IMG/VR virus record: IMGVR_UViG_3300047095_000752
Location: 1 to 64,000 of that record
DNA: 64,000 bases
Reading direction: 5' to 3' (one strand)
Origin: a virus
Positions 1,660-37,772 of this stretch are shown here, in pieces. The notes below the pieces were generated by a model that saw only the letters and a program-made list of their open reading frames with translations, was not told where the DNA came from and did not search any database. How positions within the stretch are numbered: position 1 is the stretch's first letter; the number at the start of each line of letters is the position of its first letter. A program made the position numbers and the translations under genes.

Positions 1660-1882
1660 CGTTCACCTTTGTAAACCATATACATTTTACCGTATACTTT
1701 GATGACCGAAGTCGGTCGACTATAAATTCAATTTTACGCCCAACATTATTTCCAAGTTCATCAGAAATGTCCGTTGTATAAAATAAATAAAATAAAGTCT
1801 TCGCAAATTTTAGAATTAATTGTTCAAGACTACAACATAGTTCGTATATAATAACACTGAGTTTATAATTACACTGCGTCAT
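1652..1882 (-). CDS. Small hypothetical protein, 76 aa
   Basis: I place the start at the ATG at 1882 (MTQCNYKLSV), which overlaps the 3' end of the HD-Pnk gene; a longer frame to 1936 is also open. The N-terminal half is a likely helix (LEQLILKFAKTLFYLF) and the C-terminus is basic. Function unknown. Confidence 0.5.
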   Translation of the reverse strand: MTQCNYKLSVIIYELCCSLEQLILKFAKTLFYLFYTTDISDELGNNVGRKIEFIVDRLRSSKYTVKCIWFTKVNDG

Positions 1883-3074
1883 AACTTGTTTTAAACCATA
1901 TACCATCAAAATTTTCGTTATAAGTAGGTATTTCAATTCTTTTCATAATCTTGAATGTTTCTTCACCTACCGTGTGATCGGTTCGATTACGGTCGTTGAG
2001 TTTACACGTATCTTCATTTAAAATTATAAATGTACATCCTATAGTTACATCTCGATATCTATTCTTCAAATAATTTAAAATGACTCTTCTATTATCTTTT
2101 TTAAGGTTAGTATTACAAACTGCTATTTTATTCCTAAACCCATTTATACTTATTTCGTTATTTATATCTTCAATTAGTAATTGCTCTAATGGTGTATTTT
2201 TCGACAGGCAGTACTCAAATGCTTGTTTGGCGACCTCTTTAGGGTCGTTGAGTATAACTCTTGAGTTTAAATCTGATGATAAATTGTCTTTGAATACTCG
2301 CTCCCGAATTATATCGAATGAAAATATTTTACGGTCAGCCTGAGTTGCTCGGAAATCCTTACCAGATCCGGGTAGACCACAGTAGAACATGATATCTACA
2401 TCGTCCGACGTCAGATTACTTTTAGTATATTTACGTCCGGTGAAATTTATATTAACAACATGTTTAGATTTATGGGAATCGGAGTCTTTGGAAGCTACAC
2501 TTCCCAACTCATCAATTTCTTTGAATAATTTGAATTTATTGTATAGGGAACTCTCATACCTAACCATCTTAGCCAACTTATCGGGTATATTAATTAGATC
2601 GTAGAACACCATATGATTTGACACTAAATCACAAACGTCAACTATAATAGAAGATTGTTTATCGGTATCAACACAGAATTCAGCCAACACATCATACACA
2701 ACATTTGAGGCGTGTTTTGTACTCATAAATGCATGGTTATAGAATGTAACTTTATTATCATCTTTTATTTTTCTGGTAAATACTTTTCCGTAATCGTGAG
2801 TTAAAATTGCAACAGTCATTGTCATCAAATCTTCAACGGATTCAATCTTGATTGTGTTATAACTAAGGTATGCTTTATACGCCCCTAGCATGGCGGTGAC
2901 ATGTGCCCATACATCACCCTCACCGTGCCATGGGTTGTGGTTCACTATAGTTTGACCATCGTATAAATGATGTGAAGTGACTCTCATTTCTTGAACTTCG
3001 GATTCATATTTTTTGCAATAAAAAGAAATTATTTTATTCATATATTTTATGTTTTGTGCGTTTGATGTTGCCAC
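1869..3074 (-). CDS. HD-domain phosphatase / 5'-OH polynucleotide kinase (HD-Pnk type)
   Basis: 401 aa bifunctional RNA/DNA end-healing enzyme. Residues about 45-165 form an HD phosphohydrolase domain, with conserved His residues in a NHNPWHGEGDVWAHV segment and the HD pair in ILTHDYGK (about 91-97). Residues about 230-400 form a P-loop kinase with Walker A GLPGSGKD (about 233-240) and a C-terminal arginine-containing lid (DRNRTDHTVGEE) ending in a YNENFDGIWF segment typical of phage polynucleotide kinases. The known Runella HD-Pnk has this order: the HD domain removes 2',3'-cyclic or 2'/3' phosphates and the kinase phosphorylates 5'-OH ends, making ends ligatable. The start is the GTG at 3074, because AAGGAG lies 6 nt upstream; the longer frame to 3101 would run into the promoter element. 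It has its own phage promoter and follows an RNA ligase gene. A plain HD protein fused to an unrelated kinase is less likely. Confidence 0.85.
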   Translation of the reverse strand: MATSNAQNIKYMNKIISFYCKKYESEVQEMRVTSHHLYDGQTIVNHNPWHGEGDVWAHVTAMLGAYKAYLSYNTIKIESVEDLMTMTVAILTHDYGKVFTRKIKDDNKVTFYNHAFMSTKHASNVVYDVLAEFCVDTDKQSSIIVDVCDLVSNHMVFYDLINIPDKLAKMVRYESSLYNKFKLFKEIDELGSVASKDSDSHKSKHVVNINFTGRKYTKSNLTSDDVDIMFYCGLPGSGKDFRATQADRKIFSFDIIRERVFKDNLSSDLNSRVILNDPKEVAKQAFEYCLSKNTPLEQLLIEDINNEISINGFRNKIAVCNTNLKKDNRRVILNYLKNRYRDVTIGCTFIILNEDTCKLNDRNRTDHTVGEETFKIMKRIEIPTYNENFDGIWFKTSYDAV

Positions 3075-3098
3075 GAAAAACTCCTTAAAGGTTGGATA

Positions 3099-3118
3099 CA
3101 CTATTCAATATATATAAT
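3099..3118 (-). promoter_or_regulatory. Phage promoter motif upstream of HD-Pnk
   Basis: The - strand reads TTATATATATTGAATAGTG, a copy of the recurrent TATATATWWAWTAKTG element. It lies between the stop of the RNA ligase gene (3120) and the ribosome site of HD-Pnk, so the transcript leader would be very short. Confidence 0.65.
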
Positions 3119-3119
3119 G

Positions 3120-4406
3120 CTAATGAGATTCCGTTTGTTCACCAGATCGAATTATGTAAAATACTGATATCAATTTAAATATTTTTCGCATCAAATGTGT
3201 CTTATTGGTTACTGGATCTATATGTTCATATAAGTCATTTTCCAAAGAGCGAACCACAATTCCTTCCCGACCTTTGAATTGATTCTTGTTCAACATACTA
3301 TGGTGCACTAAGGTGGTCGGACCATCTACATATTCTTCAAGGACACCTTCGTAGTACGGACCTTTATATAGACACTTCACACATGGTAAATTAAATGCTT
3401 TTGTATACGATTCTAATATATCGATGTGTTGATATTTACCATTAATTGTAATATCGAAGAATTTATATTCTTTAGCTGTACAACCATAATTCATATCTTG
3501 AACGCCGTTACCATATATTTCACCATATAGAACAATGTCATCACCCCCAGATCCGCCATGTCCCTGTGATATAGATTCTGCGAATCCCCTATTATTATTC
3601 CTAAGATTATACAATAGATCTTTAACTCGTGAATCTAATATCGGTAGTAAATATAGATCGACGTATGGTGTTTCGGCTATGTTAAAAATAGTATTGAAAT
3701 AGGGCACATTATTATATAGAGAATTTATAATTTTACTTTTCCAGCAGTTATTAAATATATTGGTATGGTATTTGAATAAGGTTTTCTTTTTAAATTTTAC
3801 ACTGAATTCTCTAACAATCTTTAACTGAGTGGTATGACTTCCTGCAACAAATTCAAATTTACCTTTAGGGTTCTTAACATACCCCGCCCGGAAGTTTGTA
3901 CCGTGTATTTTCTCAGTTATATAAATCGTTTCACCTCCACTAAAAGCTCCGGGATAATTTCTATAATTTTCAATACCAGTGTAATTCGTGAACGTACCAT
4001 ATTGATTTACGATATACACATTAGAGTCGTACCCAGCAGTTTCATAATTATATGCGTTATAATATTTAGTTTTATCATCACCTACCTTGTCACCGGCTTC
4101 AATGTGTATGGCAAATCCAAAACTGGGTTCCGCCCTTATATTCGCCGCCATTATTCTAACGTGTGTATCAGCCATAACATGCCCCGAAGGGAGTGTCCCA
4201 CAATATTTGGTTATCTCCCATTTATCCGTCCATTCTCTTGGGACTAGACTGTTCGGTGGGAAATATATAATTGGATCATTTACTTTATACTTACCTTTTG
4301 GTACAATTACCCACCACCCATTGATTCGGATCTTCTCTAATAAATCCGCATTTGGGTGTTTTTGTACATCTGATATAGTTTCTACTTTTACAGCAAAAGT
4401 TGACAT
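3120..4406 (-). CDS. RNA ligase, DraRnl (Rnl5) type
   Basis: 429 aa ATP-dependent RNA ligase. The N-terminal ~110 residues look like the OB-fold module specific to the Deinococcus DraRnl/Rnl5 group (start MSTFAVKVETISDVQ, then GWWVIVPKGKYKVNDPI). The nucleotidyltransferase core follows. Motif I is EKIHGTNFR, with the AMP-accepting lysine at about residue 166. A motif III/IV region reads DIVLYGEIYGNGVQ, and motif V reads EGIVVRSL. The family seals nicks bearing a 3'-OH on RNA, using 5'-phosphate ends. The start is the ATG at 4406, 5 nt after AAAGGAAC; the frame upstream to 4433 is unlikely to be used. It sits between the Hen1-ligase fusion and HD-Pnk, whose kinase and phosphatase would prepare its substrate ends. 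It is a second RNA ligase of a different family from the Pnkp-type one at 4784-6982. Confidence 0.88.
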   Translation of the reverse strand: MSTFAVKVETISDVQKHPNADLLEKIRINGWWVIVPKGKYKVNDPIIYFPPNSLVPREWTDKWEITKYCGTLPSGHVMADTHVRIMAANIRAEPSFGFAIHIEAGDKVGDDKTKYYNAYNYETAGYDSNVYIVNQYGTFTNYTGIENYRNYPGAFSGGETIYITEKIHGTNFRAGYVKNPKGKFEFVAGSHTTQLKIVREFSVKFKKKTLFKYHTNIFNNCWKSKIINSLYNNVPYFNTIFNIAETPYVDLYLLPILDSRVKDLLYNLRNNNRGFAESISQGHGGSGGDDIVLYGEIYGNGVQDMNYGCTAKEYKFFDITINGKYQHIDILESYTKAFNLPCVKCLYKGPYYEGVLEEYVDGPTTLVHHSMLNKNQFKGREGIVVRSLENDLYEHIDPVTNKTHLMRKIFKLISVFYIIRSGEQTESH

Positions 4407-4419
4407 GAAGTTCCTTTCT

Positions 4420-4731
4420 TTACCGATATCCATGATTTTGAGTATAAATTTGAGCTACACTTTTCCGGCGAGTATATAACACTTGTGCAATCGGACCTGC
4501 TATATTAGCACTATATGTAACCCCGAGTATTATACTACGAGTGAAATAATTTAATTTTAAAAAACTTAATGTAAATATACGATTTTTATATTTTCGGCGA
4601 CTATTACATCTTGATGTTATACACATATCATTTTTAGATTTTGTTATAACTTTAGACATGAGAAATATTAATTTACGAATTGAACTCAAACATAAGTTTT
4701 TGTCAACCTGCGATAAAATGGATTTATTCAT
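4420..4731 (-). CDS. Small basic hypothetical protein, 103 aa
   Basis: ATG with an AGGAG site, directly after a strong GC-rich hairpin. Strongly basic (Lys/Arg-rich throughout, for example SRCNSRRKYKNRIF). It lies between the two RNA ligase genes, so an RNA-binding accessory role is conceivable, but nothing in the sequence proves it. Its 3' end runs to just before the RNA ligase start. Confidence 0.55.
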   Translation of the reverse strand: MNKSILSQVDKNLCLSSIRKLIFLMSKVITKSKNDMCITSRCNSRRKYKNRIFTLSFLKLNYFTRSIILGVTYSANIAGPIAQVLYTRRKSVAQIYTQNHGYR

Positions 4732-4783: not shown

Positions 4784-6982
4784 TTACAACGTTTTATCGA
4801 CTACACCAACAGAACTCATTCCGAGAAATGCAGCCACATACTTGAGTCTAGTCTCATGCCGATTATTCAAGAATGCATCTAATATTATTTTAGAGCATTC
4901 AAATTCTTGAATAGCAAGTCCACGCTTTTTAGCGACTTGGCGATGTGTTATATTTTTGAAATATTCTTCATTTTCATATAGAGGGAGTCCGTAAGTCAAA
5001 TTTAAATACTTATGTCCCCGGACTTTAAGAGCGGGTTGGATATAATATCCGGATGGTAATACACTTGAAAAATTATTCAATGGTTTATATACAAACCCTT
5101 CGAGTAAAGGTAGATCTGGATATGTATTGAAGGTAAGAGTTTCAGAAGGAGAACTACCGCAACGAGAGAGCCAGTCCAGTGTATTGTTTGCCATATCGTG
5201 TTCATCCGTTATAACGGTATATTTGCATGGCTTTAGTATTTTACAATCATCTGATATGATATCTATGTATTTCATCATATCCAAATTAGACATTGTATAA
5301 CCGTGTATAAGAGATCTTTTATGCTTGGTACCGATAGCAAGTACATGAAATGGTCGAATTTCAATATCAGTTTCTTTAGTAAATTCGTTGAGTGTATTCA
5401 ACACGGTCTCAACATACGCCGTATCCTTACCAGAATGTATATTGGATAGATATTGGGATTCGATTGCTGCGTAGAATTGCTCGTTAAGCATTGTTTTTGC
5501 AGCGTACGACCAAGGTAGAAGCTCAGCATCCAGAATAATAAAGGACACTTCCATCCCGATTTTTTCTTCAAGGGCGCTTATATTTTTTGATATTTCTGAA
5601 TGTAGGACGAGCTTTATATTTTGTTCATCTTCATTCTTGAAAAATTCAAATCCACCACGAGAATTTATTATAAGGGTTTTATCGTACCCTTTTTCTTGAG
5701 CAGCTTCAAAATTCTTAAACCACAATATTTGAGTTCGAGAACCCATATACTTAGTCTGTTGAATTAATTTAGTTACGCCACGCTCTCTGTAGTATTTAAA
5801 CGCACCCAGAGGATGTTCAATATAAGAGTCGAATTGTCCGTATAAAGTTCTATAATAGTCGAGTTTATTTTCTGGAAGTAGATGCTCCTTAAGAGTCTCA
5901 ACCGGAGACACTGTAGGTGCCATGTAAAATATATTCTTCGAGTTACTTATGAATGCACGTGACGTATACCCACGCCCAATTTCCTTCTGAGATACAGAGT
6001 AATCAGACACAGGGAGGTATATGTTACCTTGCATTTTATTCAAATTTTTAAGAGATTTAAAGTCGATCTGTCGTTCAATTTTATTTTTTCGAGGTTTTCT
6101 ATAATCGGTTGTGTCAAGAGTCCATTCGAGAATTCGCTCAGGACTCCATTCGGTTGGATCAACTTGTATTGAAAATATCCTATCTTCAACTTCACCTTCT
6201 TTTGGCGGATATGGTTTTGATATTGTTATCTTGTTATCTATAAGAGATTTATGTGTAGCGAATATACAGAAGGAGGGCTGCATATTCTCAAATTCTTCAG
6301 TCGGTTCTATTATATCAATATATTCAATATTGTATAAGTCGGATAGATAACTAACCACTTCGCGGCTAAATTGGTCTTTTGTGTATTCGACGCAATGGTC
6401 TCGCCGACGGAGGCTACCCGGCTCTATCGAATAGAATTTATTGAATTCAATATTAGGGGTAGTTAGATATAAATACTTCGGTACAAATATGTTTTTAATT
6501 AAATCTAAAATTTTAATACGATCACCATATTCAAAGTGCTCAATAGCTTCCACACAAGTCAATAGATCGGGGAGACAATCGCTTATAGTTATATTTGGGT
6601 ATAGTATATTACTTTCAATTACACGAACTTTATCAGTTGTTTTTATCTTTTTTATTTTATAAAAATCCTTTTCAATTCCAAGGATTCTAAGTTTCGGATG
6701 TTCTTTTACCAACATCTCCAACAGTTTACCTTCGGAAGTACACAGGTCCACCATGTACTCAATTTCAGGCATATCATTGAGTTTATTACATATCAATTCA
6801 TGTCTTTTCTGATGTAACGATATCTTCTTATCAACCAGTTCAGCTACAGATACTGGTGGGGTATATCCAAATTCTTGCTTAAATTTTTGCTTTAATGTTT
6901 TGTTATCTTGACAGAATTTGTTCATAATCATAGAGAAGTTTTTAGAATATCTTCTAACCGTAGTTGAATCGTTATCCGACAT
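4784..6982 (-). CDS. Fusion: Hen1 3'-terminal 2'-O-methyltransferase + Pnkp-type RNA ligase
   Basis: 732 aa RNA-repair fusion. Residues about 60-250 match the bacterial Hen1 methyltransferase: SAM-binding VDLCTSEGK (about 78-86), metal-binding EAIEH (about 145-149), TTPNIEFN (about 174-181) and RRRDHCVEYTKDQF (about 192-205). Hen1 methylates the 2'-OH of the 3' end at an RNA break before sealing. Residues about 310-732 match the ligase domain of bacterial Pnkp: APTVSPVET upstream, then motif I TKYMGSR (nucleotidyl lysine about 411), LDAELLPWS, LEGFVYKPL, and a QPALKVRGHKYL motif V with a KKRGLAIQEFE segment near the end. The kinase and metallophosphatase domains of normal Pnkp are absent, and so is the usual N-terminal half of Hen1. 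Both appear to be supplied by separate genes here (HD-Pnk and 6972-7610). I use the ATG at 6982, 6 nt after AAGGAA; ATG at 6988 is the alternative. It overlaps the upstream gene by 11 bases. Confidence 0.88.
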   Translation of the reverse strand: MSDNDSTTVRRYSKNFSMIMNKFCQDNKTLKQKFKQEFGYTPPVSVAELVDKKISLHQKRHELICNKLNDMPEIEYMVDLCTSEGKLLEMLVKEHPKLRILGIEKDFYKIKKIKTTDKVRVIESNILYPNITISDCLPDLLTCVEAIEHFEYGDRIKILDLIKNIFVPKYLYLTTPNIEFNKFYSIEPGSLRRRDHCVEYTKDQFSREVVSYLSDLYNIEYIDIIEPTEEFENMQPSFCIFATHKSLIDNKITISKPYPPKEGEVEDRIFSIQVDPTEWSPERILEWTLDTTDYRKPRKNKIERQIDFKSLKNLNKMQGNIYLPVSDYSVSQKEIGRGYTSRAFISNSKNIFYMAPTVSPVETLKEHLLPENKLDYYRTLYGQFDSYIEHPLGAFKYYRERGVTKLIQQTKYMGSRTQILWFKNFEAAQEKGYDKTLIINSRGGFEFFKNEDEQNIKLVLHSEISKNISALEEKIGMEVSFIILDAELLPWSYAAKTMLNEQFYAAIESQYLSNIHSGKDTAYVETVLNTLNEFTKETDIEIRPFHVLAIGTKHKRSLIHGYTMSNLDMMKYIDIISDDCKILKPCKYTVITDEHDMANNTLDWLSRCGSSPSETLTFNTYPDLPLLEGFVYKPLNNFSSVLPSGYYIQPALKVRGHKYLNLTYGLPLYENEEYFKNITHRQVAKKRGLAIQEFECSKIILDAFLNNRHETRLKYVAAFLGMSSVGVVDKTL

Positions 6983-7610
6983 CTTCATTTCCTTCGTCGA
7001 GCCAAGTTTTAGAGATTGTAATTAATTTATCAACAAATGCTTCATGTGCTGTATATATTCCACCGCGCCGGATAGTCAAAAATAACGATAATACATATGC
7101 CTTCTGTATGAATTCCGATGTCGTCATAGCTTCTTTTGGATTTAATTTCAACATAAAGCACGAACGCATTTCAATCGTCGATTCAACACTTGATGCATTA
7201 ATGTTGTAATCATCAAATAGCTTTACCGAGAATTCTAAGTCGTTCACAATCGGACCAATTATTATTTCTTGATTTTGCGTTTTTTGAAAAAATTGTTCGT
7301 CGGTTATATCACCTTTCGGTGGTCGTCCCGCGATGCAAGACCGTAGGGTTTCCCATAGTGCTTTTAGATGATACGGACATGCTGCAGCAACTTCTGAATT
7401 CAAATAGAAATCTAAATTCAATTGTCGTGCAACTTTTAAGAATTGCATATCATCTAATTCGGTTTTAATTTCATATTGCGTATCTACCCCGTTGACGAAT
7501 TGACCCGTGAATTTAAGTCCACGCAGGTCCTGTTCAAATGGGGGAGAATTTGGATTCTTAACTAATATATAAGATAAATGTGGTATATCACTTTTTATTG
7601 AAAAATACAT
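6972..7610 (-). CDS. Stand-alone Hen1 N-terminal domain (Pnkp ligase activator)
   Basis: 212 aa. Bacterial Hen1 has an N-terminal half that activates the Pnkp ligase and a C-terminal methyltransferase. This protein resembles that N-terminal half along its length: HLSYILVKNPNSPPFEQ near residues 11-27, a middle GRPPKGDITDEQFF segment, and a closing KLNPKEAM…FIQKAYVLSLFLTIRR…EAFVDKLITISKTWL stretch that matches the Hen1 pattern of a basic-hydrophobic helix pair ending the domain. It ends by overlapping the Hen1-methyltransferase/ligase fusion, so the two could act as a complex equivalent to a split Hen1. The match is by memory of the family, not alignment. The ribosome site AAAGGG overlaps the end of the DNA ligase gene. 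Confidence 0.72.
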   Translation of the reverse strand: MYFSIKSDIPHLSYILVKNPNSPPFEQDLRGLKFTGQFVNGVDTQYEIKTELDDMQFLKVARQLNLDFYLNSEVAAACPYHLKALWETLRSCIAGRPPKGDITDEQFFQKTQNQEIIIGPIVNDLEFSVKLFDDYNINASSVESTIEMRSCFMLKLNPKEAMTTSEFIQKAYVLSLFLTIRRGGIYTAHEAFVDKLITISKTWLDEGNEDVG

Positions 7611-13571: not shown

Positions 13572-13647
13572 TGGTACGAACGGTGTGAATCGAACACACG
13601 ACTCAGAGTATATAAGACTCCGCTTCTCACCACTGAATTACGTTCGC
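13572..13647 (-). tRNA. tRNA-Ile(UAU), copy 1
   Basis: Cloverleaf seen by eye. The acceptor stem is GCGAACG/CGTTCGT and the anticodon stem is GGAGT/ACTCT around loop CTTATAT, giving anticodon UAU, which reads AUA. The T-arm is GTGTG-TTCGATT-CACAC, and a discriminator A plus CCA is encoded. A related copy lies at 16787-16862. AUA appears common in the genes here, so this tRNA would supply a codon usually read by lysidine-modified CAU tRNA. Confidence 0.85.
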
Positions 13648-13690
13648 ATAAAAATAGGTGGGGAGGCTATCCTTTATGACAGACTCCCCA

Positions 13691-13767
13691 TGGTGATCGC
13701 GGTGGAATTCGAATCCACACTGTAAGATTTTTAAGATCTTTGCCTCGACCAGTTGGGCTACGCGACC
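13691..13767 (-). tRNA. tRNA-Leu(UAA) with a short variable loop
   Basis: The acceptor is GGTCGCG/CGCGATC, the anticodon stem is AAGAT/ATCTT around loop CTTAAAA (anticodon UAA), and the T-arm is GTGGA-TTCGAAT-TCCAC, with CCA encoded. The variable loop is only 5 nt (ACAGT), whereas bacterial tRNA-Leu normally has a long variable arm. The amino acid identity is inferred from the anticodon only. Confidence 0.75.
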
Positions 13768-13785
13768 ATTATTAAACTTTCTAAA

Positions 13786-13862
13786 ATAACCCGACAGGAC
13801 TTTCACCTGCAGTTCGTAACCATTTAGTAGGAGTGTGTTTAATATTTTCACCACGGGTTATT
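13786..13862 (-). tRNA. Divergent tRNA-like element
   Basis: The size and ends fit a tRNA: a perfect 7-bp acceptor (TAACCCG/CGGGTTA), a short D-arm (GTG…CAC) and a 5-bp T-stem (GCAGG/CCTGT). The T-loop is TGAAAGT rather than TTCRAAT, the anticodon arm cannot be paired cleanly, and no CCA is encoded. It may be a degenerate tRNA or a non-translating tRNA mimic. Confidence 0.45.
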
Positions 13863-13864
13863 CT

Positions 13865-13937
13865 TGAGAATGACTGGATTTGAACCAGCGACACGACGAT
13901 GACTTTCGTCTGCTCTACCAGACTGAGCTACAATCTC
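13865..13937 (-). tRNA. tRNA-like element, possibly Asp(GUC), with 6-nt anticodon loop
   Basis: The acceptor is GAGATTG/CATTCTC (one mismatch), the D-arm GCTC/GAGC is good, the anticodon stem GACGA/TCGTC is perfect and the T-arm GCTGG-TTCAAAT-CCAGT is canonical. The loop between the anticodon stem strands is AAGTCA, six bases without U33; GUC would be the anticodon. CCA is not encoded. Confidence 0.55.
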
Positions 13938-13973
13938 AATAGTTTTAATAGAGAATTAACTCTATGTTTTTGA

Positions 13974-14048
13974 TGGCTCTAGGGATTCGAGTCGAACGAA
14001 TAACGGGGAATTTAACAGATTCCTGCTCTCCCATTGAGCTACCCTAGA
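13974..14048 (-). tRNA. tRNA-Asn(GUU)
   Basis: The acceptor is TCTAGGG/CCCTAGA, the D-arm is GCTC/GAGC, and the anticodon stem GGAAT/ATTCC encloses CTGTTAA (anticodon GUU). The T-arm is ATTCG-TTCGACT-CGAAT, with a discriminator G and encoded CCA. Confidence 0.9.
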
Positions 14049-14058
14049 AAAGTTTTAT

Positions 14059-14760
14059 TCAAATATGAGACCACGTTTTTCTTTGAATTATTTTTTTAAT
14101 GTTATTATCGCTAACATTAAACATTTCACCTAATTTAACATAATTCTTTATTTCTGGGTATAACTTACGTATTTCTAATACTTGTTGTTTGGTGAGTTTG
14201 TTTGATATATAATTTGGATTGCCTTTTCTAGAGATTTTTTCTTTCGGCGGTATAGGTTCCCAGTGTAAATGTTTCCATCTTCTATTGTTAACAACTTCAC
14301 ATATAGTGCGTTGACCGACACCAAATAATTTACTTAATTTTTTCTGTGATATGTTATTGTTATTGTATATTTTTCTTATTTCTAATACTTGGTTATCGGT
14401 TAATCTAGAGCTTTTGCTATCTATACCTACGGCGTGGGTAATTAAATTATTTTTATGCGCATGTGTATTATTTTCTTTGACCGTACACCATTCTAGATTT
14501 TTGAGATCATTATTTGATTTATTACAATCCATATGATTTACAACGGCATCTTCGAACCAAGAGTCTGGATTAAAAGCGAACATTAGTAACCGATGGACCC
14601 GTAATTTTCTTCTTTTTGGTTTTAATGCTAAATGAACTGTATAATATCCACTATCTAAACTTGCTTTAACAAATTTACCACTATCATTATTCCGAACTCG
14701 ACCTAAATTACTAATAGAATATTTATCGGTTAAATGACAATCTCTCCAAATTTCTTCCAT
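14059..14760 (-). CDS. HNH homing endonuclease with NUMOD4-like N-terminus
   Basis: 233 aa. It starts with a NUMOD4-like segment (EIWRDCHLTDKYSISNLGRVRN). An HNH nuclease core follows (VHRLLMFAFNP, VVNHMDCNKSNNDLKNLEW), then two repeated helix-turn-helix-like segments (LTDNQVLEIRKIYNN and LTKQQVLEIRKLYPE) that would read DNA. Freestanding endonucleases of this kind move between phage genomes by cutting a related site. This one is inserted inside the tRNA array, between tRNA-Asn and tRNA-Arg, in the same direction. Confidence 0.88.
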   Translation of the reverse strand: MEEIWRDCHLTDKYSISNLGRVRNNDSGKFVKASLDSGYYTVHLALKPKRRKLRVHRLLMFAFNPDSWFEDAVVNHMDCNKSNNDLKNLEWCTVKENNTHAHKNNLITHAVGIDSKSSRLTDNQVLEIRKIYNNNNISQKKLSKLFGVGQRTICEVVNNRRWKHLHWEPIPPKEKISRKGNPNYISNKLTKQQVLEIRKLYPEIKNYVKLGEMFNVSDNNIKKIIQRKTWSHI

Positions 14761-14789
14761 ATATGATCCAATGCTACAATAAAAAATAA

Positions 14790-14866
14790 TGGTGCCAACA
14801 ACTGGATTTAAACCAGTAACTTACGATTTAGAAGATCGTTTCTCTATTCAATTGAGATATGCTGGC
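14790..14866 (-). tRNA. tRNA-Arg(UCU)
   Basis: The acceptor is GCCAGCA/TGTTGGC, the D-arm is TCTC/GAGA, and the anticodon stem ACGAT/ATCGT encloses CTTCTAA (anticodon UCU, reads AGA). The T-arm is ACTGG-TTTAAAT-CCAGT, and CCA is encoded. Confidence 0.88.
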
Positions 14867-14883
14867 ATAGAAAACTTAAAAAG

Positions 14884-14956
14884 ATATGGTGGTATGAATT
14901 ACACATACCGTCACACGGACCCGATGTCCGGTGTTTTATCCTTAAACTAACCATAT
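14884..14956 (-). tRNA. Divergent tRNA-like element with 13-bp acceptor/T helix
   Basis: The acceptor ATATGGT/ACCATAT is perfect and the D-arm GTTT/AAAC is good. The T-stem has six pairs (GGTATG/CATACC) around a non-canonical TGTAATT loop, so the acceptor plus T helix is 13 bp rather than 12. The anticodon loop CATCGGG lacks U33. No CCA is encoded. Anticodon and identity cannot be assigned. Confidence 0.45.
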
Positions 14957-14964
14957 CTAAAATT

Positions 14965-15042
14965 TGGAGCAGCGCCACTGACTTGCACAATGGATCATCC
15001 AACTGGAGTGCTGGATGGTTTTACTATTAAACTACGATCTGC
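14965..15042 (-). tRNA. Divergent tRNA-like element with no normal anticodon loop
   Basis: CCA is encoded and the outer acceptor pairs are good (GCAG/CTGC), but the inner ones mismatch. The D-arm GTTT/AAAC is good. The T-arm is CATTG-TGCAAGT-CAGTG. The anticodon arm is ATCCA/TGGAT around a 10-nt loop that can itself pair (ACT/AGT). Identity cannot be assigned. Confidence 0.4.
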
Positions 15043-15053
15043 ATTGTAGATTC

Positions 15054-15440
15054 AATTGTTTCGGTCCCTGAAGACTTCTGGACCGACTTCACCATATGAC
15101 CGGGTAACTACGATGTCGGTATGTTAGCGACTCCGTCTACGCGACCGTCTTCGTGTGTATAAATAGTAGCATACCTCAAAAGCCCAAGTCAAGAGGTTTC
15201 TAAAATTTCACTTACACTGGTGAATCCGAACTGAGTTATAAATGGGAAAAAGCATCCGAAACCCGTTTACACACACTCAGCCATAATTTATAAGAGTACC
15301 GGTAAACGCAAGGCATTTACATCCCCGGTACTCCAAACCAAGCCACGTAGCTCAGTAAAGTCAAATAAAACATCGGGTATACCATAAAGTATACCCGATG
15401 GCTTCGCACCGATAGGGTACGAAAAATCCCACCAAGCCCA
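15054..15440 (-). ncRNA. Unidentified structured RNA segment in tRNA unit
   Basis: No convincing frame covers this stretch, but it carries strong hairpins. One is TCGGTCC…GGACCGA at about 15055-15083. Another is a GGTATG/CATACC-closed element at about 15117-15177. A GAGTACCGG…CCGGTACTC hairpin with a second internal stem lies at 15294-15333, and a perfect 12-bp CATCGGGTATAC hairpin at 15371-15400. It lies within the leftward RNA unit between the promoter near 15661 and the terminator near 13530, so it should be transcribed. None of the folds matches an RNA family I know. Confidence 0.5.
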
Positions 15441-15477
15441 CATGCGCTCCATGATGTTTATGATGGGATCAAAAAGG

Positions 15478-15640
15478 TACCCGGATATCGGATTTGAACC
15501 GACGATCCACCTCTATCTATAGTTCGAGGTGACCCCTAGCTTCTATCAACACCTCATGTGACTAGCAAGGGTGTCTTCAAGATTCTTGTCTGACGTTCGG
15601 GAAGTCACTCCTTATATCAGACTCCTTTAGGACCGGGATA
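15478..15640 (-). ncRNA. 163-nt closed RNA with a tRNA-like T-arm end
   Basis: The two ends pair as an acceptor-like helix (TATCCCGG with CCGGGTA, one bulged base). Next to the 3' strand is a textbook T-arm, GTCGG-TTCAAAT-CCGAT. Instead of D and anticodon arms, the interior holds several hairpins: GTCTGA/TCAGAC, a GACACCC…GGGGTC pairing, and ACCTC/GAGGT. This is the topology of a tRNA-like domain with a large insert, as in tmRNA, but I see no clear tag frame and no encoded CCA. It is the first RNA after the promoter motif at 15661-15681. Alternatives: a tRNA with an intron, or a tRNA-derived regulatory RNA. Confidence 0.45.
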
Positions 15641-15660
15641 GTTTAAACTTAAACTGTATA

Positions 15661-15681
15661 CAATATTTAATATATATAATA
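15661..15681 (-). promoter_or_regulatory. Phage promoter motif of the tRNA array
   Basis: The - strand reads TATTATATATATTAAATATTG and abuts the stop codon of the VWA gene. The leftward unit downstream is entirely RNA genes plus one homing endonuclease. Confidence 0.7.
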
Positions 15682-16263
15682 CTAAGCTCGTAAAGAAGCT
15701 ACACTAGCACTCATACTAGCGTATGCCGAGCGGGTTCCAACAGATGTAGGATCGTACTGTACAGTGTTATGAGTTTTGATCCCAAGACCACTACCAACGG
15801 CAAATGCGTCGATATTTGCGCCGGAGAAAATAAATTGCCAGTTGTATACTTCTTCTTGATGTGTGATTTTATTTTTAATATCATTCAATGTGAAATGACG
15901 ACTTGCATTTTCGTCACCATCTGTAATAATACAAATGATAACTTTTTCAGGTCTCTCTGGTTCCGGTAGTTTATTCAAATATACACCAATGTGATCTACA
16001 GTCTTTCCAATAGCATCGAATAAAGCTGTATACCCATTAGGTTGATAATTTTCTTTACTTAATAGTTCACAACTATTTAGATTTTCTACTTCACCGATAT
16101 CAACTTGAGTATCAAATATAGTTTTAATAATTTGAGCGGTTCCGGGTATTTTTCTTTGATCTTCAATAAGTGAATTATACCCGCCAATCGCATCATCTGT
16201 TAAAGAATGCATTGATCCGGACTTATCAACAATCATTCCAATTAGAGTATGGTCTTTCTTCAT
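15682..16263 (-). CDS. VWA domain protein
   Basis: 193 aa, a single von Willebrand factor A domain. The MIDAS metal site is visible as IVDKSGSMHSL (about residues 11-21), with later partners (NGYTALFDAIGKT near 79-91, and CIITDGDENAS). Such domains bind metal-dependent protein partners; stand-alone phage copies have no fixed function. The ATG follows AAGGAA. Upstream is a host-like sigma70 promoter rather than the phage motif, which suggests early expression. Confidence 0.85.
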   Translation of the reverse strand: MKKDHTLIGMIVDKSGSMHSLTDDAIGGYNSLIEDQRKIPGTAQIIKTIFDTQVDIGEVENLNSCELLSKENYQPNGYTALFDAIGKTVDHIGVYLNKLPEPERPEKVIICIITDGDENASRHFTLNDIKNKITHQEEVYNWQFIFSGANIDAFAVGSGLGIKTHNTVQYDPTSVGTRSAYASMSASVASLRA

Positions 16264-16448: not shown

Positions 16449-16610
16449 CTACAACCGGCGACCCTTCTCCAGCGCCTTCTCCAGTTCTTTTTCGCGATTA
16501 GACCCCCATTTTTCCTCCCTCAAATTCCTGCAAAAGGCGTCGCGCTGCGCCTTTTCTTCGTCCCGCCGCTGTTCGTTCCGCGCCTTTTCTTCATCTGCAC
16601 GCTCTGACAT
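16449..16610 (-). CDS. Small highly charged coiled-coil protein, 53 aa
   Basis: Starts MSERADEEKARNEQ with AAAGGG upstream and is almost entirely Glu/Lys/Arg/Gln/Ala, so probably one long charged helix. It forms its own unit, with a phage promoter before and a terminator after. Codon use is GC-rich (GCG, CGC, GAG), like the 9739 and 11652 genes. Function unknown. Confidence 0.6.
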   Translation of the reverse strand: MSERADEEKARNEQRRDEEKAQRDAFCRNLREEKWGSNREKELEKALEKGRRL

Positions 16611-16685
16611 TTTTATACCCTTTCATCGTTTGTTTATAATATCTCAGTTCACATGAGCCGAGGATATCGAATAACTTCATGATAG

Positions 16686-16706
16686 CACTAATTAATATAT
16701 ATAATT
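16686..16706 (-). promoter_or_regulatory. Phage promoter motif for the 53-aa gene
   Basis: The - strand reads AATTATATATATTAATTAGTG. A leader of about 75 nt separates it from the start codon. Confidence 0.65.
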
Positions 16707-16737
16707 AAATACTATATAATATAAACTAAAAATAGAT

Positions 16738-16778
16738 CAAAAAATAAACCATTATAACTTGTTAGGTTATAATGGTTT
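16738..16778 (-). terminator. Terminator of the second RNA unit
   Basis: The - strand AAACCATTATAAC…GTTATAATGGTTT hairpin is followed by ATTTTTTG. It ends the unit carrying tRNA-Ile copy 2 and the structured RNAs. Confidence 0.8.
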
Positions 16779-16786
16779 ACGAGTAT

Positions 16787-16862
16787 TGGTAGACCGTGTA
16801 AGAATTGAACTTACGACTCCGTGTATATAAGACGCGGCTTCTAACCACTGAATTAACGGTCC
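16787..16862 (-). tRNA. tRNA-Ile(UAU), copy 2
   Basis: The acceptor is GGACCGT/ACGGTCT and the D-arm is nearly the same as copy 1 (TAATTCAGTGGTTAGAAG). The anticodon stem CGCGT/ACACG (one mismatch) encloses CTTATAT (anticodon UAU). The T-arm is GTAAG-TTCAATT-CTTAC, and CCA is encoded. It is the last element of its unit, directly before the terminator. A diverged duplicate of 13572-13647. Confidence 0.82.
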
Positions 16863-16869
16863 ATCGAAT

Positions 16870-17475
16870 GGTTGTAAAACCCTGAGTGCTATCCGGCGAA
16901 GGCTAGCACTCAGGGGGTCTGACTACACATTCCTATGCACTGGGAGTCGCACATAGGTCTTTCGTAGGAGCCCTCGCCAAAGAGCCTACTAGTGTAGAAA
17001 TATCATAGCCCGGTGAGTAGGCGGGGATAGACGCTACTCACCGGGTGGTGCTCTTGGACTTAGTCTGTGTGGACTTAGTCACTGAGCAAGATTTTAAAGA
17101 CTTTCGTCTTGAGTTGAAATTTACGACTTCTTGAAATCTTAGAGAAGTCGTAGTATCGTATACCATCTCGTGCACCGTCGAATCCAAAGGGCTGCATTCC
17201 CCTTTGCGGAAGGATTCGATGGTATGGTGATTTCCGGAACACTGTTCCGCGATACCGTTGTGTGGATTCGCGTGGAGTCAGTCACGCTGGTAGTGCGGCT
17301 GGGGGACAGCCGATGAGGGGAAAAGAAAGTCCAGCCAAGGAGTTATGTGCAGGGCTTTGGCAAACCCTTTGGGAGACTCCTTGGCTGGATAATTAAAAAG
17401 CTTCAACCCAGACAATGACTCTGAACCCAAGTGGAAGGAAATGGGTTATGCGACCAGAATCTTTAATCTAAGTTT
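16870..17475 (-). ncRNA. About 600 nt of densely folded unidentified RNA
   Basis: No credible coding frame is present. The stretch holds a chain of strong hairpins. 16880-16915 has a perfect 12-bp CCCTGAGTGCTA stem, and 17009-17045 a perfect 12-bp CCCGGTGAGTAG stem. 17127-17155 has an ACGACTTCT stem, and 17176-17223 CCGTCGAATCC with its near-complement. 17331-17388 has a 13-bp CCAGCCAAGGAGT stem with an inner hairpin, and CGGCTG/CAGCCG lies near 17297-17313. A direct repeat GACTTAGTC occurs near 17055 and 17073. A phage promoter motif lies immediately upstream (17481-17501), and tRNA-Ile plus a terminator lie downstream, so it is expected to be transcribed with the tRNA. No match to RNase P RNA, tmRNA or a group I intron could be made. 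Confidence 0.6.
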
Positions 17476-17480
17476 TGCTT

Positions 17481-17501
17481 TCAATAATTTATATATATAG
17501 T
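17481..17501 (-). promoter_or_regulatory. Phage promoter motif of the structured-RNA unit
   Basis: The - strand reads CTATATATATAAATTATTGA, four bases after the stop codon of the 17506 gene. Confidence 0.7.
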
Positions 17502-17505
17502 GGAT

Positions 17506-17772
17506 TTAATTATCTTTACAATTATTAGTTTCCATACACATATAAGATAACCACATGTTAAATTCATTACAAGCCCTGAGACTATTTATTAATACTTTCT
17601 TTTTTATACTAGATATCTCAACCGTAAAGTCCGGATGATCTTTTAACCTGACTTTATATGCTGGTATTAAATTTCGTGTTATAGGAAGTATGTCTATGTG
17701 ATCATAAATATTATCTAAAATGTTATTATATCGAGTTAAGTATGCTGAGTGTAAATTAGATGAGAGATTCAA
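17506..17772 (-). CDS. Small hypothetical protein, 88 aa
   Basis: Starts at a TTG inside the end of the preceding gene, with AAGGAG 13 nt upstream. Helical N-terminus, a KVRLKDHPDFTVEISS middle and two Cys near the end. No family recognised. Confidence 0.5.
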   Translation of the reverse strand: MNLSSNLHSAYLTRYNNILDNIYDHIDILPITRNLIPAYKVRLKDHPDFTVEISSIKKKVLINSLRACNEFNMWLSYMCMETNNCKDN

Positions 17773-37736: not shown

Positions 37737-37772
37737 CTATAAATCCTTATTTTATATACATTTGTCCTCAGT

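Follow-up and report, generated by a model that had tools for sequence, protein, structure and literature searches.

The source record is a jumbo phage genome of 245,225 bases, and its first 64 kb, referred to here as the window, were analysed. The window encodes T4-like packaging proteins (terminase) together with the beta and beta' subunits of a multisubunit RNA polymerase. The beta' protein has 179 relatives in IMG/VR, and since the best of these reach only 35-40% identity, the phage stands isolated within a large group of jumbo phages. Of its six tRNA genes, five lie within 13572-14866, and the sixth, a tRNA-Ile with anticodon TAT and an encoded CCA, is found on the minus strand at 16787-16862, at a distance of 2-3.3 kb from the other five. 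It is preceded by a non-coding unit, whose best limits are 17480 to 16863 on the minus strand, and followed by an intrinsic terminator of 15 pairs and a T run (16780-16744, minus strand). The original prediction placed a hairpin-rich non-coding cluster at 16870-17475, and this cluster is borne out by the stem statistics, the fold z-score and the ORF and codon scores, as are the tRNA and the terminator that were said to follow it. The unit was also claimed to contain no gene, in agreement with our finding that all of its ORFs are at most 55 aa long and have codon scores resembling those of shadow ORFs of real genes. The G+C content was correctly described as high (0.49 compared to 0.35 for the genome), but taken alone it does not demonstrate selection on structure, since several protein genes preceded by promoters of this class are equally rich (0.51-0.64). 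The wider interpretation, a structured, promoter-driven non-coding unit ending in a tRNA and a terminator, is supported.

That the unit begins at a phage promoter is backed by a genome-wide motif. The motif, TATATATATAAAYTATTGAA, scores above 15 bits at 28 places in the genome compared to 1-2 in Markov or shuffled genomes, and these class-A sites are nearly all on the minus strand, the majority directly above genes. The copy at 17479-17500 (minus strand, CTATATATATAAATTATTGAAA), about 20 nt upstream of the first hairpin (H1), obtained the top genome score in the PWM scan, although partly by construction, since the PWM was built from five look-alike seed sites including the one at 17500. The copy at 15679, which lies above a second non-coding unit described below, scored 18.6 bits and was not among the seeds. 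Across the record this promoter-like class takes the form TATATATATAAAYTATTGAA/TATATATATTAAWTATTG (e.g., at 17500, 15679, 10820, and 212539), and several class-A copies lie upstream of the unusually G+C-rich genes mentioned above, as if driving accessory cargo. A second promoter-like class, GGACAAAT followed by an (A/G)TAAA-like sequence, was observed upstream of the terminase and structural genes, for example at 37767 and 44678 (minus strand) and at 219900 (plus strand), with 18 of 22 copies located no more than 150 nt from a gene start.

Perfect Watson-Crick pairing produces stems of 14, 12, 12, and 10 bp in the unit, in addition to at least eight smaller ones, consistent with the six or more strong stems that had been claimed; both 12-bp stems were described correctly, whereas the length of the stem given as 13 bp should read 12 or 14 bp. 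Five stems of at least 8 bp were observed, compared to a mean of 0.33 and a maximum of 3 in 300 dinucleotide shuffles, in which the longest stem was 11 bp. Moreover, the unit was alone among 2,447 sampled 606-nt genome windows in having three G+C-rich stems of at least 10 bp, and it is the genome's densest cluster of G+C-rich perfect stems. The minus-strand fold reached -230 kcal/mol compared to -161 +/- 7 for shuffled sequences (z -9.3), and a 150-nt window at 17326 had the lowest G+C-corrected energy among all 6,536 genome windows.

Most single hairpins on the minus strand had z-scores between -3 and -7. H1 (17398-17480; z -3.1), located where the transcript presumably starts, forms a 5'-terminal stepped hairpin of 4+9+8+5 bp, followed by H2 (17330-17389; z -7.0), a perfect 14-bp stem with a 7-bp hairpin inside and a loop sharing a 16-nt match with position 86656 of the record. 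H3 (17296-17312; 6 bp, UCCCC loop) and H4 (17270-17287; 5 bp) are fold predictions, and a nested domain at 17153-17256 (z -3.2) combines H5 (6 bp) with H7 (8+6 bp), a perfect 8-bp inverted repeat being present at 17178-17219. Further downstream are the perfect 10-bp hairpin H8 (17122-17152; z -3.8), two more predicted hairpins, H9 (17097-17110; 5 bp with a GAAA tetraloop on the minus strand) and H10 (17049-17088; 5+8 bp with two copies of GACTAAGTCC), the perfect 12-bp stem H11 (17009-17045; z -6.8), the weaker H12 (16923-16998; z -2.1), a three-way element with a 9-bp hairpin, and finally H13 (16880-16915; z -6.4), a perfect 12-bp stem ending 17 nt upstream of the tRNA. We observed no loop-loop complementarity of six or more pairs that could knit the hairpins into a compact body, and a compact tertiary fold through loop pairing was rejected. 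The minus-strand fold contains two weak long-range helices, each of 5 bp (p 0.87 and 0.96). In these predictions the approximately ten hairpin domains look largely autonomous, which suits a row of binding modules, or a set of small RNAs, no less well than a single compact body.

Minus is the more likely strand of the predicted structured RNA, but the sequence features point both ways, the plus strand folding almost equally well and by some measures better, a point that the original prediction had passed over. The promoter, the tRNA, the terminator, H1 (17392-17475; -22.7 kcal/mol on minus vs. -10.5 on plus), H12 (-26.8 vs. -21.4 kcal/mol), and the GAAA-capped H9 all point to minus, and we infer the RNA strand from the first three of these and not from the fold. 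In contrast, total energy (-244.5 for plus compared to -235.7 for minus in the whole-unit fold), the number of G-U pairs (23 vs. 10), and purine-rich, C-poor loops on plus (purine 0.58 and C 0.15, compared to 0.43 and 0.30 on minus) count against the minus reading. These observations, together with several hairpins that are longer on plus, a GGGA loop exposure that none of 60 shuffles reached, and an 8-bp end-to-end closing helix (16869-16876/17449-17456; p 0.83), would suit a structured RNA on the plus strand at 16869-17456, forming one body and antisense to the tRNA-Ile transcript. The sense-strand loops of phage tmRNAs, used as a yardstick, were likewise purine-rich and C-poor in nine of nine cases; however, shuffling indicated that loop composition in the unit mostly tracks the overall base skew. 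Since, in addition, neither a promoter of either phage class just upstream nor a 3'-terminal terminator was found on plus, and H1 and H12 are lost on this strand, we regard a plus-strand RNA as less likely, though it is the main alternative. Two ideas specific to the plus strand were also considered: a CsrB-like sponge was rejected because ANGGA was not enriched (3 vs. 3.4 expected) even though GGGA is loop-exposed, and an RNase P-like motif read by eye (GAAAGTCC) had no Rfam support.

The sequence, fold statistics, and non-coding nature of the unit, its promoter motif, and the adjoining tRNA and terminator are established, and from these we infer how its RNA may be transcribed, from which strand, how it may be processed, how stable it may be, and any molecular role. 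Our main reading, to which we assign a probability of about one half, is that the unit is a promoter-driven accessory structured RNA gene on the minus strand, whose product RNase P would release by cutting the precursor of the tRNA-Ile. A transcript of approximately 740 nt would start at the phage-specific promoter near 17480 and carry about ten largely independent hairpin domains, the tRNA-Ile, and the intrinsic terminator, in that order. RNase P cleavage at the 5' end of the tRNA (16863/16862) would then free an upstream RNA of approximately 615 nt, closed at its 5' end by H1 and at its 3' end by H13, and since strong hairpins close both ends, this RNA should be long-lived and resist exonucleases. 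Rather than being an mRNA or a tRNA relic, it is most likely a structured RNA that acts by binding a protein or ribosomes, or by sequestering them. The accessory-RNA reading is favoured by the minus-strand z of -9.3, the stem and single-hairpin statistics, the non-coding codon scores, the top promoter copy above H1, the co-linear tRNA and terminator, and the same layout in the second unit. Counting against it are the lack of a homologue in the collections searched, the absence of loop-loop complementarity, and some stems that are free of G-U pairs.

The role of the hairpins might instead be confined to shaping or protecting the leader sequence of the tRNA-Ile precursor. Smaller perfect hairpins do occur between tRNAs of the same phage (e.g., 13660-13692, read by eye), but 600 nt and ten domains far exceed what a leader needs, and the other tRNA-Ile(UAU) copy (85% identical over 54 nt) sits in the plain tRNA cluster, making this explanation rather improbable. 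A role at the DNA level, as an origin, a recombination site, or a G+C-rich mobile insert, would be in keeping with a G+C-rich block that looks like inserted cargo and with long G-U-free stems that fold equally on both strands and equally as DNA. Yet H1, H2, and H12 have G-U pairs inside, no repeated hairpin family was found elsewhere in the genome, and the unit is framed by a promoter and a terminator, and we consider a DNA element very unlikely.

The unit is real, unusual, and an orphan that matches no known family. Searching Rfam over the region at gathering thresholds and at E up to 10 returned only tRNAs and chance matches, and a whole-library cmscan of 16600-17700 (E up to 10) gave no match to ROOL (RF03087), GOLLD, or tmRNA. 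The ROOL model likewise found no match in G000 and 27 relatives, nor in any control genome. Nothing credible was obtained by blastn of the unit against phages and plasmids, exact-stem patterns were not found in viral and genome contigs, no close relatives were found through the neighbouring proteins, and single-sequence covariance models of two domains recovered, among 70 records, only the phage's own record and none of its 69 relatives.

The closest comparisons by setting are ROOL, a large non-coding RNA of ornate structure that is found in phages and prophages, often by tRNA islands, and GOLLD, a large phage RNA that adjoins or contains tRNAs and is induced at lysis; both form RNA cages and can be abundant, and the function of neither is known (PMC12286853). 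A conserved pseudoknotted fold and a homo-oligomeric cage are hallmarks of both families. Like these RNAs, the unit lies in a phage and near tRNA genes, with the tRNA-Ile 17 nt past H13. It shares with ROOL the large, ornate, non-coding style, but the 574-position RF03087 consensus was not recognised in it, and with GOLLD it shares being a large phage RNA candidate beside a tRNA, but without a match in the whole-library scan; by the tests run, it is hence not filed as a member of either family. T4 RNAs C and D are extra stable RNAs co-transcribed with the phage tRNA cluster. Compared by description, the unit is similarly predicted to be transcribed with a tRNA, whereas the T4 RNAs are short and single and the unit comprises 600 nt and about ten domains. 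Staphylococcus RNAIII and other sRNAs with C-rich loops offer a comparison of loop composition, since UCC/UCCC exceeded shuffles in the minus-strand loops of the unit (P 0.02-0.04, a weak statistic picked post hoc), but they belong to another organism and the unit has no known target.

A tmRNA is likewise a structured RNA found within the tRNA islands of related phages, and was detected above the Rfam family cut-off in 9 of 34 related jumbo-phage records (G002, G010, G011, G015, G026, G028, G030, G035, and G037; loci L131-L139), mostly inside such islands, with tags predicted by ARAGORN that include ADDYYTEVALAA and GNTEFAMAA. That the unit is a highly diverged or permuted tmRNA is already disfavoured and hardly credible, since the resemblance of TGGATTCGACGG (17186-17175, minus strand) to the conserved tmRNA 5' motif falls within the H7 palindrome, and neither a tmRNA match (RF00023; E up to 10) nor a T-arm was found in the region. 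Other occupants of the same niche in the relatives are apparently circularly permuted tRNA genes, at 825-878, 964-1019, 1357-1410, and 4289-4344 of locus L004, at 15676-15728 and 16063-16125 of L117, and perhaps at 5674-5738 of L123. In these, a T-arm and the 3' strand of the acceptor precede a linker of 4-17 nt and the 5' strand of the acceptor with the D-arm; the flanks are able to pair, and an ATTACA element recurs. Artificial rejoining can yield tRNA calls by ARAGORN, but many joints and anticodons were tried, so that we present these genes only as a lead. The literature searched contained no mention of phage tRNAs being permuted. A pattern search for permuted tRNAs inside the window gave only background.

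The layout of the unit at 17480-16863 is repeated in unit 2 (14867-15680, minus strand), a non-coding, structured stretch (z -4.2) with a class-A-type promoter at 15679, located upstream of a tRNA-Arg and folding clearly better on minus (-265) than on plus (-227). It is conceivable, and we suggest it only tentatively, that the two units exemplify a novel class of large, structured RNAs in phages, which share a precursor with a tRNA and have no relationship to GOLLD, ROOL, or tmRNA. If an unrelated RNA did occupy a GOLLD/ROOL-like setting, acquisition of such RNAs by jumbo phages would seem to have happened repeatedly, and their function could be probed in an independent system.

Three tRNA-like pieces missed by ARAGORN and Rfam were seen by eye in unit 2: one at 15641-15477, with acceptor-like ends and a T-arm around a long insert, one at about 15075-14965, and one at 14956-14884, with a 7-bp acceptor and an odd T-loop. 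A further tRNA at 13864-13938 (minus strand) has a 6-nt anticodon loop and was left unassigned by ARAGORN; it may lack function or require processing. A vWA-like protein (PHROG 7371) is encoded between the two RNA units, at 15682-16263 (minus strand), and its homologues in records G035 and G038 likewise lie inside the tRNA island. An RNA-repair gene set is encoded on the minus strand at 4784-6988, 3120-4433, and 1869-3101, its members being a protein with partial matches to Hen1 methyltransferase and Pnkp ligase, a DRB0094-type RNA ligase, and a third protein weakly matching a tRNA-CCA enzyme model.
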